Part shown: positions 20,049 to 46,058 of the stretch, one piece after another
How positions within the stretch are numbered: position 1 is the first letter of the stretch
Layout: each line of letters begins with the position of its first letter
Assembly (NCBI GenBank): GCA_037893245.1
Contig: JBAIAA010000106.1
Location: forward strand, 1,116,001-1,180,000
Reading direction: 5' to 3'
DNA length: 64,000 nt
From: Crossaster papposus
Taxonomy: Eukaryota; Echinodermata; Asteroidea; Velatida; Solasteridae
The notes under the pieces: model-generated
Seen by the model: the letters and a program-made list of their open reading frames with translations, nothing else
Databases searched by the model: none
What the model was told of the DNA's origin: nothing
Program-made: the position numbers and the translations under genes

Positions 20049-22647
20049 GTAGTACATACCGGGTACACAGGTATTGGTAAAGATTTAAAATTGCTACAAA
20101 AGAAATTTGTTGTAGCACAACCAACTGGTCTCACTCACACACTTAGACAAATTTAGTGGGTTCTTTAATAACATCCAACATACTGTTTACAGAGGAATTA
20201 GGGAAGTCAATTCTCTGAATTGTTCAGATGTAACATTGGACAACACTGTTGCATCTGAGTTTATTCTGCTCTGGTTTTGATAAAGTAGCTCAATACATAT
20301 GACCCCACAGTAATCAAACAAAACAAATGTAATTCACTTCAGACTCCATTTGATGAAAAGTAAGGAAGCTAGACATGCTAGAAAGATGTAACGAAATATG
20401 AAATAGTGGGAGACCATCCATTACATCTGAATTCATTGATTTGTAAGCTACATAACAGCAAAGATGTAAAAGATACTTAAGATATATATTTAAAAAAAAT
20501 GTTTTCTAAACTTCTAAACTCTATTTGTACTTTTTAAGTTTTTATCTCACTAAATTCTCCCACAGTTTAGCCTGGGACACCATCACATTTAGTGACAAAA
20601 CAAAAATATATCACGTATGATGCTGCGTTCCAATCGCGCCATGTTTCTCTAGTCTTATTGTTGCGTCCTTATCGCCTGATAACTCGTGTTCACCACTGGT
20701 GAACTCAAAGTGGAATTTTCTTGTCAAGTTCATGATTTCGCAAACGTCTGAAGTACTCGCGCCTGCGCATTGGTTCAGGTAAGGATCACACACGAGAAAG
20801 TTACAGATACTTGACTCAAAAACATGGAGATATTTACAGTGAAAACTAGAAACACAACGCGATTAGAACGCAGCATATTACCATCATGTTTTATTTCATT
20901 TGAAAGCCTTACTTAATTACTCTCCAAGTTACTACCGGTACCATAATCATCTTTACAGTCATTTTGGTTTAAACAAGAACAATAATTACCTGAACCAAGA
21001 ATGCCAAAATGTGTTCACGTCTCAATTTCATAGAAAGACTCATCTACTGTACATGTACATGTACCGTACTTAATTTGATAGAAAAGTATGCAAATTTGGG
21101 CCGCTTGCTCAATAAATGTGTTTTTGGCCAAAAGATTCTTCTAAAATGAAAATACCAGGTCCTGTGATCTGCCTTGTTGGGTGAAAAGTTTAAAGGAGCT
21201 TCTTTTGTTCAGTCCCTTTTGCTATTCGGGTTTAGTTTCTGATCATGTGATGCCTAGGCTTTAACTCCTGATTGTCACAATCAGACTCCTCATACATGTG
21301 TAGAAAGTCATCTTCCGAGGAAAACTACAGTACAAACTGCATATTCTACACCATCAAGTTAGCGTGCGCGCACAGTGGGCAATGTTGCAAACAAGCGTGC
21401 TTGTTGCTTAAAAGTCATCAAAATACGCCACACTCACAAAAATTAACACCCAAAATGCCAACGTACCGGTACATTGTACATTGCAATCTGTAGGAGGTGA
21501 TATCATTTGAAAGGGGTTTATTGCAATTTCCCTCCATTTTTTAATTTTGTCTCTTCTTTTACTGGTACATGTACTTGTTATTATATTATAGCTTTTCTCC
21601 AATGTTTACCTATTTTTGACACACTTTAAGTTTTTGGCCGATTCTTCTTCATCGCTACCCCATCTGACCACCCACGGCGATTGTAATACAGAAACCAGTC
21701 ACTCTTAGATGACAACCATATCCTGTCCTCCATCGGGCACAGTTCCTAGAGAGTAGAAACAAAATATTTTGGCTCTAGAGGAGATTTTATTTTGTTTGTT
21801 CTATCATCACCAGGTTTCGAGCCGGGTGGGCCCTCGAGCGCCGAAGTGATCTACCCAGGACGAGCTGAAATGAGAGAAAGTAGCGAGATGGCCGTAAGCA
21901 GACAAACGACGCTCTTCATGGTCATTGACTCTAAGGCATCATCATGAAGGTCAGAGATGCGACAGGGGTTAGCCGGGAAGGCCGGAATCGTGCTCTTAGG
22001 CCGTGGGCAAGCAGCCTGCGCCATCGCTGCTGCTTTGGGTGATTATCCTACTCAGTTTGCCTTGTTAAAATATTAGCATTTATTCTCGTGTTACAGTGGT
22101 GTATAGTTCCAAATCCACTCAGGAAGCCCTTGAATTCATGAGTGTTTAACCGTCCCGGTATTTGCTTATACAATTTTTTGTAATGATTAATTGTGAAAAA
22201 CACAAAAACGAAAGAAAAAACTATTAGATCCTTAAAATAAAACAAAAATGTAATAGAATAAATGTTCATGCTTTTTTTTTTTTTTTTGGCATAACAATTG
22301 ACACAGGATTTTGGTTACTTTTTTAATCACATATGTACTCATAAAACGTCCGACTGTACAATGCACACACACAGAATAACTGGGTAATACAAATACATGT
22401 AATATAATAGGTTTTGTGTAAAACATATTGAAGTTGAAAATTGATACATGTAATGGAAAAAATATATATATGTAATTTGTGGAAGAGCATGGCTATACCT
22501 TTGTTCTTAACAATACAATATTTCCATTACATCATACAAATTGAAAATTTGTCGTAGAATTTGTTGAATTAAAGAGGACGGAAAATAAATCTTTTATTCC
22601 ATGTACGTGGAACCTTTATCCTTTGCAATTCTCTCTTTCCATGACAG
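20049..22647. other. No gene recognised; GC-richer island at 21.78-22.04 kb
   Basis: The segment near 21790-22040 is clearly more GC-rich (CCGGGTGGGCCCTCGAGCGC, CGGGGTTAGCCGGG-type text) than its surroundings, with no readable long frame. It may be a repeat or a CpG-rich regulatory island for DISP. Upstream DISP exons encoding the cytoplasmic N-terminus were looked for here and not recognised. Confidence 0.35.
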
Positions 22648-22771
22648 CTATGCACGGCTGATCAGTCAACATCCCAACGTAATCTGCCTGGTCATTCTAG
22701 CTAGCATCACCGTCACTGGCCTGCTGGCTTTTCTTCTCTACGATCTCCCAGATTTTTCAGATCCGGTGGCT
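22648..22771 (+). CDS. DISP1: Dispatched homologue, exon with transmembrane segment 1
   Basis: Dispatched is a 12-transmembrane RND-type transporter that releases cholesterol-modified Hedgehog from producing cells. This 124-nt exon follows an acceptor TTTCCATGACAG and ends at GCT|GTAAGT. It reads SYARLISQHPN, then the hydrophobic first membrane segment, then LLYDLPDFSDPVA. Vertebrate DISP1 has the same order: a YARLI motif, TM1, and LPDFSDP running into GFEPRGT. The exon starts with one base completing a codon and ends in phase 0, which joins the next exon exactly (…DPVA|GFEPRGT…). The cytoplasmic N-terminal exon or exons are not recognised, so the gene is 5'-incomplete here. The symbol is by family resemblance; DISP1 and DISP2 cannot be separated. 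Confidence 0.88.
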
Positions 22772-40189: not shown

Positions 40190-40568
40190 GGTTTTGAACC
40201 ACGGGGTACGGCCATAAGTCGGCGGTCGGTCACCTGGCAGAACATGCTGGATCAGACTGGAGCCGGCCAGCTTCTCTCGGTCTACCCGGTGTACGGCAGC
40301 CGCCATCCTTACAGCCAGATAAAACACCCCACTGTGCACTCCACCTTACCCAATGCCTCCGTCTCCTCGAGCAAAACAACCTCATCGTCCCTCATGCTGA
40401 CTGCCGTGCCGGACAACATCCGGACTTCCAGAGCCGTGGATGAGATTGATGCTGTCACGTCTGGCGACGATGATGCCAGTAGTAGCAGTTCCGGCAAATG
40501 GCTGGATGACGGAGAGTTACCCTTCGGAGAGGGGGATGTGAATGAGCCGTTTTTCTGTTTCAACCCTT
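40190..40568 (+). CDS. DISP1: Dispatched homologue, first extracellular loop exon (exon A)
   Basis: After the acceptor TTTTGTTAG the exon reads GFEPRGTAISRRSVTWQNML, the Dispatched signature just outside TM1. It continues through LLSVYPVYGSRHPYS and a Ser- and Asp-rich low-complexity part (SGDDDASSSSS), and ends …GDVNEPFFCFNP before CCTT|GTGAGTC. It is 379 nt, starting in phase 0 and ending in phase 1. The segment forms the start of the large first extracellular loop, which is the variable part of the family. The second half (from about 40447) exists again at 42068-42191. The frame stays open past the donor to 40696, but that extension is intronic and is duplicated with the intron. Confidence 0.85.
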
Positions 40569-42063
40569 GTGAGTCAATAGACCCGAGACCTAATGGCCTT
40601 GTTTATGCGCTTTCCTATGGAAGCGAAGTATGGACAGTCTCGCTCATTTGTGCCATAAGAAAGCGTGCATGTAAAAAAATCATGACATCATTATAGGTCT
40701 TAGGCATACTGCACTTTGAGTTATGGAACAATGGAAATGTAGTTTTACCCTTAAAATACTGTACAATTTCACGAAGATTTCACTGAGATGTTATGGTGAA
40801 ACTACATTTCCAATATTCAAGAACTCATAGTGTTGGGTCTTATTTTTGCCATTGTATAACAGTGTGTTTATTTCCTGATAGTTCTCTTAAAAATGTAGAC
40901 TAGTAGAGTACACAAATGTAGTTGCGCAGTTTAGAATAAGAAGGTGGGTTGGGGCAGTTCAGACATTTGCTGGTCTGTTTATTAGAGGAGAAAGCTACAT
41001 GTACATATAAATATATATAATTGACTTTGCACAATGCAACAAGGTCTACTAGCTCAGATCAACTGTTCACTGTTTTAGTGGACAGATAGGGAAATATTTT
41101 GAGGAATTGTGCCTTCGATGATACACGCATGAAACTTGGCACACAGTCAGAGTACCGGTATGTCATAAAAAGATTTTTAGCTTATAGGGCCATCACAGAT
41201 TTGTCCTTTGAAAAAAATATAAGTATAATAACAAGCAATTAAATGGCGCCATTGCTTGTTATTCTGCCTATAATTCTTCAAAAGACAAATATGTAATTGC
41301 CCTATAGCCAGATAATGGGTATCTTTCATGCTTGAATCATCAAAGGCACAATCTCATCACCTATCTTCCCTACTATTTGGAACAACATTAACCTGACAAT
41401 TCTGTGTGGACTTTTTATTTTGTGGGTTTGACAAGGGGGCTTTTAAATCACATACTGATTCTATTTTGGCTTGACTTTTACAGCTAGAGAGTATGCCTGG
41501 ATGGTGTTTGAGCCAATTCACTCTGGTAATCTGCTGACGTTACATGGCCTACAGTCAATGTGCCAGTTGGAAGAAGCCAATGTCCATCAGCATCTGCAGT
41601 TCATGAGGAGCTGTTACACCAACAGGAAGGGGGAATGCTGTCACAGCTGGTCAATCGGAAACTATGTGGCGTTGCTTAACAACCGTTCTAGCTGCGCAAC
41701 AATTACGGCAGCCGATGTGGCAGAAACCCTGGAATTATTGCAAAAATGCTCCCACTTCTATCGCAGTCGGACCTTGCTGCCCGACTGTTGGAAGACCAGG
41801 GACTTGAGACCGTGCCCGACCAACATCCATCGGGACTGCATCCGCTATGACGCCGTCTACTCCATCATGCATTACCTGGCTGATGTGGAGTTTCTGAGCG
41901 AGGAGAAGCCCAACAACATCCGCGTGCAAAATGCCATGGTCATCCTACCGGTGCATGCTGGGAACGACATGCAAGAGGTCTACGAGGACAACTTTCAGGA
42001 CAAGGAAGTAGAAAACTCGGAGGTTAAAGTGACGGGATTGTTCTTCGACTTCAAGTACGATCT
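40443..42063 (+). repeat. Tandem duplication in DISP, unit 1
   Basis: The unit runs from GATTGATGCTGTCACGTCTG in the middle of exon A, through the intron, to TTCGACTTCAAGTACGATCT in the middle of the following exon. The next bases repeat ATTGATGCTGTCACGTCTGG. Spacing between copies is 1621 bases on the exon-A side and 1570 on the exon-B side, so the introns differ by indels. Exonic parts are about 97% identical by eye; introns are more diverged. Confidence 0.9.
41085..41375. repeat. Element F in the DISP intron (copy in unit 1)
   Basis: The left end GATAGGGAAATATTTTGAGG / AATTGTGCCTTCGATGAT is mirrored by ATCATCAAAGGCACAATCTC / ATCACCTATCTTCCCTA at the right. The inner arms contain ATAGGGCCATCACAG and AACAAGCAATTAAATGG. 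A 3'-truncated duplicate lies at about 42730-42965 and a diverged third copy at 19.72-20.05 kb. It is a foldback element, non-coding. Confidence 0.7.
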
Positions 42064-42191
42064 CAAGATTGATGCTGTCACGTCTGGCGACGATGATGAC
42101 AGTAGTAGCAGTCCTGGCAAATTGCCGGATGACGAAGAGTTACCCTTCGGAGAGGGGGATGCGAATGAGCCGTTCTTCTGTTCCAACCCTT
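41484..42191 (+). CDS. DISP1: Dispatched homologue, extra chimeric exon (B1 + A')
   Basis: The acceptor GACTTTTACAG precedes the exon and the donor CCTT|GTGAGTC follows it. It is 708 nt, exactly 236 codons, with phase 1 on both sides. The first 580 nt encode the Cys-rich second part of extracellular loop 1 (REYAWMVFEPIHSGNLL … CCHSWSIGNYVALLNN … DCWKTRDLRPCPTN … GLFFDFKYDL). At 42064-42070 this runs in frame into a second copy of the exon-A end (KIDAVTSGDDDD … DANEPFFCSNP). It differs from the canonical copy in the last exon at seven residues, among them Trp for Arg in REYAR. Inclusion would lengthen the loop by 236 residues; skipping restores the usual order. It could also be a non-functional insertion or an assembly artefact of two haplotypes. 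Confidence 0.75.
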
Positions 42192-43633
42192 GTGAGTCGA
42201 TAGACCCAAATTGTAATGGTTTTGTTTATGCGCTTCCTTATGGGAGCGAAGTGGGAACACCAGACGAAGTATGGACAGTCTCGCTCATTTGTGTCATAAG
42301 AAAGCGTACATGTAAACAAATCATGACATCATTATAGGTCTTAGGCCTACTGCACTACGAGTTATGGAACAATGGAAATGTAGTTTCAGCCTTAAAATAC
42401 TGTGAAAATTCACAGAGATTTCACAGAGATTTCATGGTGTACCTGTACCTACATTTTTATTATTCAAGAACTCGTAGTGTTGGGTCTTATTTTTGCCATT
42501 GTATAACAGTGTGTTATTTCCCTGATAATTCTGTTAAAAATGTAGACTGGTAGAGTAGTTGCGCAGTTTAGAATAAGAAGATGGGTTGGGGCAGTACAGA
42601 CATTTGTTGGTCTGGTTAAAAGAGAGGAGGAAGCTACATATAAATATATACAATTGACTTTGCACAATGCAACAAGGTCTACATTGTACTTCATGTAGCT
42701 CAGATCAACTGTTCACTGTTTTAGTGGACAGATAGGGAAATATTTGGGGAAATGTGCCTTCGATGATATACGCATGAAACTTGGCACGCAGTCAGAGTAT
42801 GTCATGAGATGAGAGATATTTTTAGCTTATAGGGCCATCACAGATTTGTCCTTTGAAAAAATATAAGTATAATAACAAGCAATTAAATGGCTGCCATTGC
42901 TTGTTATTCTGCCTATATTTCATCAAAAGACAAATACGCAATTGCCCTATAGCCAGATAATGGATGAGATACTCCAACTATGTGCCAAATTGTGGGTTTG
43001 ACAAGTGTTTTTTTAAATCACATACTAATTCTATTTTGGTTTGACTTTTACAGCCAGAGAGTATGCCCGGATGGTGTTTGAGCCAATTCACTCTGGTAAT
43101 CTGCTGACGTTACACGGCCTACAGTCAATGTGCCAGTTGGAAGAAGCCAATGTTCGTCAACATTTGCAGTTCATGAGAAGCTGTTACACCAACAAAAAGG
43201 GGGAATGCTGTCACAGCTGGTCAATCGGTAACTATGTGGCGTTGCTTAACAACCGTTCTAGCTGCGCAACAATTACGGCAGCCGATGTGGCAGAAACCCT
43301 GGAATTACTGCAAAAATGCTCCCACTTCTATCGCAGTCGGACCTTGCTGCCCGACTGTTGGAAGACCAGGGACTTGAGACCGTGCCCGACCAACATCCAT
43401 CGGGACTGCATCCGCTATGACGCCGTCTACTCCATCATGCATTACCTGGCTGATGTGGAGTTCCTGAGCGTGGAGAAGCCCAACAACATCCGCGTGCAAA
43501 ATGCCATGGTCATCCTACCAGTGCATGCTGGGAACGACATGCGAGAGGTCTACGAGGACAACTTTCAAGACAAGGAAGTAGAAAACTCGGAGGTTAAAGT
43601 GACGGGATTGTTCTTCGACCTCAAGTACGATAT
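42064..43633 (+). repeat. Tandem duplication in DISP, unit 2
   Basis: The second unit starts at ATTGATGCTGTC, repeats the end of exon A, the intron and the start of exon B, and ends at about TTCGACCTCAAGTACGAT, where the canonical gene continues with ATCTTCGGCGAGCATCTGAC. The intron copy (42192-43053) is shorter than the first (40569-41483), mainly because the 3' end of element F has been lost or replaced. Confidence 0.9.
42730..42965. repeat. Element F in the DISP intron (duplicate, 3'-truncated)
   Basis: It matches the 41.09-kb copy through GCAATTGCCCTATAGCCAGATAATG and then departs, lacking the right-hand terminal arm. The presence in both duplication units shows the element predates the duplication. 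Confidence 0.7.
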
Positions 43634-46058
43634 CTTCGGCGAGCATCTGACGGCCGAGGCTTTGTATCCGTGCCTTGGAGTGGTGATCATTATCTTGCTG
43701 ATGTGGATATACATTGGATCTTTGTTTATCACCGTCATGACAGTGCTGAGTATGGCCATGTCGCTAATCCTTGCATATTTCCTCTACCGTGTGGTCTTTA
43801 GGATTCCCTTCTTTCCATTCATGAACCTGACCACTGTTATCCTCCTGGTGGGCATTGGAGCCGACGACGCGTTTGTCTACTGTGACATCTGGAAGCGTAC
43901 CCGTCTGGACCACGTCAACACCCCTCACGTTCTGGTGGTCTTGGACACACTGCGGCACGCTTCAGTGTCCATGTTCGTCACCAGTCTGACAACAGCGTCC
44001 GCTTTCTTTGCCAACTCCATCAGCAGCATTACCTCCATTAAATGCTTTGGGATTTTTGCAGGGACGACTATACTTGTCAACTGTTTCTTCACCGTTACCT
44101 GGTTGCCTGCTGTTGTCACCATTTACGACCATTACTTCGACGGATTCTCCTCCCACAGAAAGGACACCAGGGAGTACAGAACATACAAATGGAAACACTT
44201 GTGGTGCACTCGCTTCATGTACTACGTGCACAAAATCAAGTATGCTGTGAGTGAATGGTCTCGCATTTTCTTTGACAAGATTTTACCTTGTGTTGTAGTC
44301 AAATTGCGGTACATGTGGCTGCTGACTTTAAGCACACTTACACTGGGTGGATTCATTCTAATCTTCTTAAACCCAAAGCTTCAGTTACCCACTCTCCCCG
44401 AGTTTCAATTGTTCCGCTCGCTGCACCCTTTTGAGCGATACGATTTTATCTACAAAGATATGTTCTGGTTTGAAAAGGTCAACAGCACGGGGTCACAGGT
44501 TTACGCTCACTTGCCTTTGACAATTGTCTGGGGTATTCAGCCTCGAGATAACGGCAATCCCCTGGACCCAGACAACCGTGGCACCATCACATTTGATGAA
44601 ACGTTCAACATTGCGCTGCCGGACTCCCAGCAGTGGCTTATAAAATTCTGTGCCAGGTTGCGCAATCATACTTTCTACTTTCCAACCTCAGGGCTGCAAT
44701 TTAAAAACTGTTTTATAGAGAGCTTTAAAACCTGGATGCAGTCTAGAAGCTGCCTGGACCCCGAAACGGGGAAGAGTCACGAACCATGCTGCCAGAAAAG
44801 CACATTTCCGTATTCTGAAGACGTCTTTAAGAAATGTCTCAAGGAAGCAGTTAGTGTTCTGTACCATGAGTTCCCAGTGGCCTTCACTAAATTCACCCCA
44901 GGACCTCGTTTCAGTGGTCCTAAAGACACAATCGCGGCTGCCATTGTCGAGTTTGACAGCACGCAAACGTTCACCTACTCCTTTGAAAAAATGAAAACAT
45001 TTTGGACCAGATTTGAGGAGTGGGTGATCTCAGAGATGAAAAACGCTCCCCCAGCTATGCAGAATGGCTGGTTCACAAGCTTTTTGGATTTTTACGATCT
45101 GCAGGACAACTTGGCACATGGTACGCCCATTGCTCTAGGCATGTCCATTATCATCTCAACTTGTGTCATGTTTTTGACCACCCAGAATCTTCTAATCAGC
45201 CTCTACGCCATCCTCTCTATCTCCGGCACCATCTGTGTCACCATCGGGGCCTTGGTGCTTCTGGGTTGGCAGCTCAACATTCTGGAATCCGTCATCCTGT
45301 CCGTCGCGGTGGGGCTTTCTGTTGACTTCACGGTCCACTACGGCGTGGCTTACAGTATTGCACCAGAGAAGGACAGGGAGTCGCGGGTGGTGTTCTCTCT
45401 TGGACGCATGGGATCTGCAATCACCATGGCTGCCTTGACCACCTTCGTGGCTGGTGCCTTGATGATGCCATCGGTCATCTTGTCCTACACCCAGATGGGT
45501 ACTTTTCTAATGCTAATTATGTCCATCAGCTGGGTATTCTCAACTTTCTACTTTCAGTCTCTTTGCCGTACCATCGGACCTGAGGGGTCGATGGGGCAGT
45601 TCCTACTCCCTGGCAGTGCCTGCTGTGCTCAGAGAAAGAACACCATCAGAGCGGTTGAGGATTCAGAGGTTATCCATTCTCATTCCTCGGAGATGCCCAG
45701 CTCGGGCGAGTCACATGAACTGGAACCCCTCGGCTCCTTCGCGGCGTCAGATCTGTGCTCGCCCGCACCTACTTGTAGCACCAGTTCCCCGGGCACCTGC
45801 AGCAAATTTTCCTGCCATCTACAAGTTGCTCCGCATTGCCCGCACCACCACCACCACCAGCACCACCAGGTCAGCAGGCACAGGCCCGAGAGTCCACTGG
45901 TCCCAGTCACCAGTGGTGCTCATTCTGAGGTGGTATGGGAGGGAACAAGCGGGTTTGTGACGCGGCTTTACCAGCCAGTGCCTCAGAGTGAGCTATCCTC
46001 GTCGGCTATTCTTCCAAACAGGAACCCAAATATCCCCGACATCTGGGTGAAAATGTGA
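43054..46058 (+). CDS. DISP1: Dispatched homologue, last exon: sterol-sensing domain, RND half 2, C-tail
   Basis: Follows GACTTTTACAG and codes to TGA at 46056-46058 (3005 nt). It starts with the second part of extracellular loop 1 (REYARMVFEP…), rich in Cys. From about 43645 comes the sterol-sensing domain with TM2-TM6; the RND-type charged motif GIGADDAF lies at 43851-43874. Then a linker, TM7, the second large extracellular domain with conserved Cys (ESFKTWMQSRSCLD, EPCCQKS), and the second transmembrane block from about 45115, with the matching AVGLSVDFTVHYG near 45306-45345. A cytoplasmic tail follows from about 45560, Ser/Pro-rich with a His-rich tract near 45840-45870. Joined without the extra exon, the visible protein is 1168 residues; with it, 1404. 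Intact RND aspartates suggest a working Hedgehog-release transporter. Confidence 0.93.

Follow-up and report, generated by a model that had tools for sequence, protein, structure and literature searches.

The stretch analyzed here (hereafter the window) comprises 64 kb of the sea star Crossaster papposus (contig JBAIAA010000106.1, positions 1,116,001 to 1,180,000). Its + strand carries a complete dispatched-1-like gene, in which the sequence encoding the body of extracellular domain 1 (ECD1), one of the two large extracellular domains of the protein, occurs twice (Table 1). Dispatched releases Hedgehog and is essential for long-range Hedgehog signaling. A preliminary description of the locus, made from the sequence alone, had already proposed this identity, which is borne out by sea-star Dispatched-1-like proteins as best hits and by PDB and Pfam matches. 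Of the proteins searched, the Dispatched-1-like protein of Patiria miniata (1192 aa) comes closest, and identity over the last exon amounts to 93% with P. miniata, 84% with Acanthaster planci, and 77% with Asterias amurensis. The best PDB sequence match is human DISP1 (6xe6, 973 bits), and the Pfam models MMPL, Patched, and Sterol-sensing exceed the cut-off on the gene product. Both the acidic pair of Dispatched in transmembrane segment 4 (TM4; GADD) and the aspartate in TM10 (SVDF), the residues changed to asparagine in the hDisp1-NNN mutant, are present, with GIGADDAFV and GLSVDFTVHYG in exon B aligning to GANNAF and SVNF of the NNN construct.

Depending on whether exon C is included, splicing would yield a product of 1436 aa, with two ECD1 bodies (residues 201-393 and 437-629), or of 1200 aa, with one; neither contains an internal stop. 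The sizes proposed initially (1168 or 1404 residues) were too small because the coding exon at 21944-22038 had been missed, whereas the proposed gain of 236 residues in extracellular loop 1 is supported.

Table 1. Exons, introns, and duplicated segments of the dispatched gene (window coordinates; CDS, coding sequence).
Feature	Position	Strand	Basis or remark
Exon 1: start codon, first 32 residues including split codon	21944..22038	+	tblastn of P. miniata, Acanthaster, and Asterias Dispatched; spliced CDS without internal stop
Exon 2: TM1	22648..22771	+	tblastn, spliced CDS
Exon A: helix after TM1 and disordered loop; 126 residues and one base, phase-1 end	40190..40568	+	tblastn, spliced CDS
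Exon A tail, copy 1 of duplicated part	40443-40568	+	
Duplicated unit, copy 1: exon A tail, intron, exon B head	40443..42065	+	period 1623
Intron, exon A to exon C (915 nt)	40569..41483	+	dispersed repeat at about 41080-41376
Chimeric exon C (708 nt), both borders in phase 1	41484..42191	+	open on both haplotype contigs
Exon C, second ECD1 body	41486-42064	+	
Duplication join CTC/A(A)G ATT, codon-exact (inferred)	42062..42068	+	
Duplicated unit, copy 2: exon A tail copy, intron, exon B head to ECD1/TM2 border	42066..43634	+	
Exon C, second exon A tail	42068-42190	+	
Intron, exon C to exon B (862 nt)	42192..43053	+	11-bp indel at 42408 separates haplotypes
Exon B: ECD1 body, TM2-12, ECD2, C-terminal tail, stop	43054..46058	+	

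Structure of the duplication and of the chimeric exon

The two copies form a tandem unit of ~1,623 bp, with a period of 1623 at the 5' end. Three structural claims of the preliminary description proved correct: the 1.6-kb repeat is real, in register, and has both breakpoints within exons; the join (KYDL-K-IDAVTSG) preserves the reading frame; and the resulting exon of 708 nt has phase-1 borders and good splice sites (GT/AG). A chance repeat is ruled out by the length and identity of the copies, and we regard a real duplication in the genome as practically certain. At the join, the sequence TAC GAT CTC AAG ATT GAT follows exon B through KYDL, then comprises one codon, and continues as exon A from IDAV. 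No useful microhomology is found at the join, which suits end joining. The residue preceding the join is leucine in P. miniata and two other sea stars and isoleucine in the resident exon B; because of this distribution, CTC is taken to be the ancestral codon and the join to be codon-exact, apart from at most one filler base or later substitution.

Part of the duplicated intron (about 41080-41376, as well as its second copy) has dozens of matches across the assembly, at 67-89%, and these often lie on both strands. It resembles a foldback element or a miniature inverted-repeat transposable element and predates the duplication.

The splice sites of exon C are functional-looking copies of the original ones: no base differs between its donor and the original one from -8 to +7, and a single mismatch separates the two acceptors within the last 26 intron bases. 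The length of the exon is divisible by three and its phases are symmetric (1-1). Since the two introns share copies of one set of constitutive splice sites, exon C would be spliced in by default, and we consider it probable that it is translated in some tissue. It had initially been described as specially skippable and as a possible source of two proteins, views that the near-identical duplicated donor and acceptor do not support, since they carry no mark of skipping. Skipping to the ancestral 1200-aa form is nevertheless possible, because both borders of the exon are in phase 1. Exon C could act as a regulated cassette, with the 1436-aa and 1200-aa forms made in different tissues or stages. 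The phase-1 borders and the intact outer sites would make such skipping frame-neutral, and if the ancestral form were retained, it would be understandable that an essential transporter can accommodate the insertion while near-invariant sites of exon C change; however, the duplicated and original splice sites show no difference that would favor skipping. We regard regulated use of the exon as a tentative alternative, and production of both protein forms in meaningful amounts as possible but somewhat doubtful.

An ECD1-like fold is predicted for the exon C product. In the model, the ECD1 elements occupy residues 1-193, with body blocks at a predicted local distance difference test (pLDDT) score of 65-96, and the tail is disordered, with residues 189-230 below 50. 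A Foldseek search with this model returned seven matches at E up to 0.001, all of them Dispatched structures, the best being murine Dispatched (7rph) with a root-mean-square deviation of 1.7 over 185 columns. The full-length model of P. miniata Dispatched is poor (mean pLDDT 54.5) and was used only for the order of ECD1 elements: a helix at 81-96, a low-confidence stretch at 96-194, the ECD1 body at 204-387, and TM2 from 389. Judging from this order, the duplicated unit appears to be one whole ECD1 lobe, from inside the disordered loop to the edge between ECD1 and TM2. By position, the extra lobe would be inserted in the counterpart of the vertebrate C-loop, a region that aligns poorly.

Two haplotypes and the divergence between the copies

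The assembly spans 1.02 Gb in 1841 contigs and appears to hold both haplotypes, with the window on one contig (C106) and the same locus on another (C691). C691 carries the same duplication, with both copies present and exon C open. Comparing 64 kb of C691 with the window, of which 7.3 kb remained unaligned, we found 899 differences in 56683 aligned bases (1.6%); the most divergent of 62 one-kb blocks reached 6.4%. Inside the duplicated stretch, three single-nucleotide polymorphisms (SNPs) and the 11-bp indel are private to one haplotype. Exons A, C, and B together (4092 coding nt) contain two SNPs and no amino-acid change between haplotypes, and exons 1 and 2 differ by a few SNPs. A single-copy orthologous locus was seen nowhere else in the assembly by DNA search (40 of 2915 candidates scored) or protein search (30 of 30 scored); in these searches, the orthologue was found on C106 and C691 only, each time with both ECD1 exons. 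The duplication is thus seen on both haplotypes of one animal, and we do not claim its fixation in the species.

Most one-kb blocks in a larger segment of the window (27145-52172), which spans the duplication, differ by about 0.1-0.7% between haplotypes, compared with about 2-5% over much of the remaining window. Such a block could reflect identity by descent or a sweep; another low block lies at about 1.8-5 kb.

The copies themselves have diverged considerably more. Among 234 compared residues, 14 differ, seven among the 193 residues of the ECD1 body and seven among the 41 of the acidic tail. The initial estimate of seven changes at ~97% identity holds for the body (18 of 579 nucleotides differ, 97% identity) but not for the exon as a whole, since the tail differs at 9 of 123 nucleotides (93%). 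The intron copies mismatch at 100 of 824 aligned bases (12.1%) and are separated by nine indels; one poorly aligned stretch near the 3' end carries 17 of these mismatches. Silent divergence (dS) between the copies is about 0.10 in coding sequence (0.098 in the exon B head and 0.085 in the exon A tail), compared with 0.12 in the intron. Large-scale gene conversion was rejected as an explanation, since the similar silent divergence of exon B head, exon A tail, and intron indicates no general homogenization.

These figures bear on two further explanations. The preliminary description had named a merge of haplotypes as the outcome that would overturn it. Similar copies in an assembly that appears to hold both haplotypes might indeed reflect an artefact that joined the two head to tail. 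Yet the duplication is present on both haplotype contigs with private differences, the blunt join lies inside exons and preserves the frame, and the local allelic mismatch is about 0.1-0.2% per kb rather than the 12% seen between the introns of the copies. Because the divergence of the copies (12.1% in the intron, dS about 0.10) exceeds every one-kb allelic block, they are not merged alleles, and we consider the chance of an artefact close to negligible. Alternatively, unequal exchange between long-diverged alleles could have generated the tandem arrangement, in which case both the divergence and a low ratio of replacement to silent divergence (dN/dS) would predate the duplication. The genome is highly heterozygous, with local allelic mismatch reaching 6.4% per kb, and such an exchange would yield a low dN/dS without constraint after duplication. 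However, the copies again exceed all 62 allelic blocks in divergence, and their 14 amino-acid differences amount to over half of the 24 between the constitutive copy and P. miniata, which makes this origin very unlikely.

Relative to P. miniata, the ECD1 body differs at 14 of 193 residues in the constitutive copy and at 17 of 193 in the extra copy, with 12 differences common to both. Because the copies are closer to each other than to P. miniata, the duplication would most simply be younger than the split from that species.

Selection on exon C and comparison with other Dispatched proteins

The statement that the frame of the extra copy is fully open was confirmed on both haplotype contigs. 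Between the copies, dN/dS is 0.157 in the ECD1 body (7 replacements vs. 11 silent changes) and 0.88 in the tail (7 vs. 2, nine differences in all). Polarizing the replacements by three sea stars (P. miniata, Acanthaster, and Asterias) placed five of those in the body on the extra copy and two on the constitutive copy; in the tail, four fell on the extra copy and one on the constitutive copy, with two ambiguous. In neutral simulations with the branch of the extra copy at 4-6%, a median of 16-25 body replacements was expected, compared with the five observed, and no more than 0.1% of runs gave five or fewer. Stops and frameshifts were both avoided by an exon of this length in 1.6-3.5% of runs. 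The extra ECD1 body also retains all nine cysteines and the one N-glycosylation motif. Constraint on the ECD1 body of exon C is likely on these grounds.

For comparison with other Dispatched proteins, we examined the 120 homologues listed out of 639 (E no higher than 0.001, lengths between 0.55 and 1.75 times that of the query). None of the 120 has two ECD1 bodies; all have one between TM1 and TM2. The initial statement that no such exon is known in described Dispatched genes is consistent with all homologues examined. A search with exon C alone gave 227 candidates, none at E 0.001, and a search with region 200-436 of the 1436-aa protein gave seven hits among 1055 candidates, with no chimeric protein apparent and the single-copy P. 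miniata protein as best hit. In the literature searched, by titles and the openings of abstracts, no duplication of ECD1 or of an exon was reported in Dispatched. The Dispatched-1 proteins of P. miniata, A. planci, and A. amurensis represent the same orthologous gene and share ECD1, the sterol-sensing domain, and the TM layout. Unlike the window gene, however, their models (1192, 1194, and 1189 aa) have one ECD1 body each.

According to the excerpts of PMC9695228 consulted, invertebrates have one Disp in the Disp1/Disp2 clade. Four Dispatched-like loci lie elsewhere in the assembly, on contigs C947, C446 (two places), and C195 (L022-L025), with 38-42% identity to P. miniata Dispatched-1. Each consists of one long open frame that starts near the ECD1 body and has one ECD1 match; they are paralogues, some of which may be alleles of each other, and might share the job of Dispatched.

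In human DISP1, the C-loop (263-285) is described, in extracts of PMC8630017 and PMC5811216, as flexible and located between ECD1 and ECD2, and furin cleavage at 280/281 as required for strong Shh binding. The insertion point in the window gene matches, by position, the C-loop that precedes the ECD1 body of vertebrate DISP1, with the difference that here the loop would hold a whole extra ECD1 lobe and has no RX[KR]R site. The furin consensus RX[KR]R, a feature of the ECD1 C-loop in vertebrates and amphioxus, is absent from the loop of the window gene, where only RTSR occurs, upstream of the duplicated part. We also considered that two furin sites might allow the extra lobe to be cut out by proteolysis, and rejected this because the duplicated part of the loop has neither RX[KR]R nor RXXR. 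Among homologues P0001-P0123, a sample consisting mostly of vertebrates, the ECD1 C-loop was not delimitable in 15 of 123; of the 108 others, 100 have the motif, and the eight without it are six named echinoderms and two other sequences, whose loops look acidic and serine-rich. Because the consensus is absent in all six named echinoderms, it does not define echinoderm Dispatched, and activation by furin may follow another course or be lacking in this group.

Duplication of exons and domains is already known as a kind of event, an example of tandem exon duplication being U2AF1 exons 3/Ab (in the part of PMC5224494 consulted). As in other animal genes, the duplication described here is intragenic and gives a frame-neutral extra exon. 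Unlike in the usual case, its breakpoints lie inside two different exons, so that the new exon, which covers a complete domain, fuses the head of exon B to the tail of exon A. A Dispatched with two ECD1 bodies is new among the homologues examined.

Proposed origin and consequences of exon C

As the best overall explanation, we favor with moderate confidence a blunt-joined tandem duplication that gave rise to an in-frame exon with an extra ECD1 lobe, spliced in by default. A break in exon A would have been joined bluntly to a break in exon B, producing the intragenic tandem duplication of ~1.6 kb and fusing pieces of two exons into a new internal one that codes for a complete additional ECD1 lobe and a flexible acidic tail. 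With default inclusion, most or many transcripts would encode the 1436-aa Dispatched with two ECD1 lobes, in the order TM1, helix, loop, extra ECD1, loop, resident ECD1, TM2. In such a protein, the RND position would remain with the resident ECD1, which is joined to TM2, and the loop would carry the extra lobe as a tethered, partly relaxed domain. Preservation of the fold together with the loss of a few conserved, surface-type residues might fit such a partly freed domain.

Several observations weigh against this explanation. Inclusion of exon C is inferred from its splice sites, and the single-copy state of P. miniata is known from gene models only. The two haplotypes count as one population observation, because they are >99.5% alike across about 27-48 kb and thus share recent ancestry. 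The low dN/dS presupposes a divergence that followed the duplication, and the middle third of the body has only one silent difference in 46 sites, so that some gene conversion in this short low-divergence stretch is possible. More changes fell on the extra copy than on the constitutive one (9 vs. 3, with 2 ambiguous; exact binomial 0.15), and they include R to W and R to H at sites kept in 118 and 117 of 120 homologues, respectively. CpG transitions account for three of the five body changes of the extra copy, as expected under drift. Under a half-relaxed model (pairwise omega 0.5-0.55), P is 0.011-0.068 for the body and 0.06-0.29 for the whole exon; because of these values, constraint on the body appears likely, constraint on the tail is unsupported, and there is some room for relaxation of exon C. 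The earlier impression that the extra copy is not obviously decaying thus stands for the constrained ECD1 body but has to be qualified by the loss of two near-invariant arginines and the nearly free evolution of the acidic tail.

These same features would be expected if exon C were silent or always skipped, a young non-functional duplicate whose decay is yet to come. The lost arginines, the CpG-type changes, the freely evolving tail, and the non-significant whole-exon test against half-relaxed evolution all agree with this alternative. Against it stand a frame that neutral simulations rarely left open, five body replacements where 16-25 were expected, and splice sites that are intact on both haplotypes, and we consider it unlikely.

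If exon C is used, a natural two-ECD1 Dispatched would test the importance of ECD1/ECD2 geometry and of the C-loop for ligand release. The extra lobe might even serve as a built-in gate or a second ligand-binding lobe of a working transporter, with splicing of exon C switching Hedgehog release between gated and open states in a lineage without the furin consensus; this scenario is speculative and distinctly unlikely. More generally, the blunt-joined duplication that we favor would illustrate a clean route from a partial duplication to a frame-neutral, domain-sized exon, with one break at a domain edge and the other in a disordered loop. Even if unused, the exon would still be a datable, domain-sized coding duplicate kept in a core developmental gene.

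Two further contigs carry COX1 genes. Those on C8 (>5.2 Mb; L016, L018, and L019) contain no internal TGA, and the contig probably derives from a bacterial associate; the COX1 on C1841 (L017) contains 13 TGA codons, and this contig is probably the mitochondrion.

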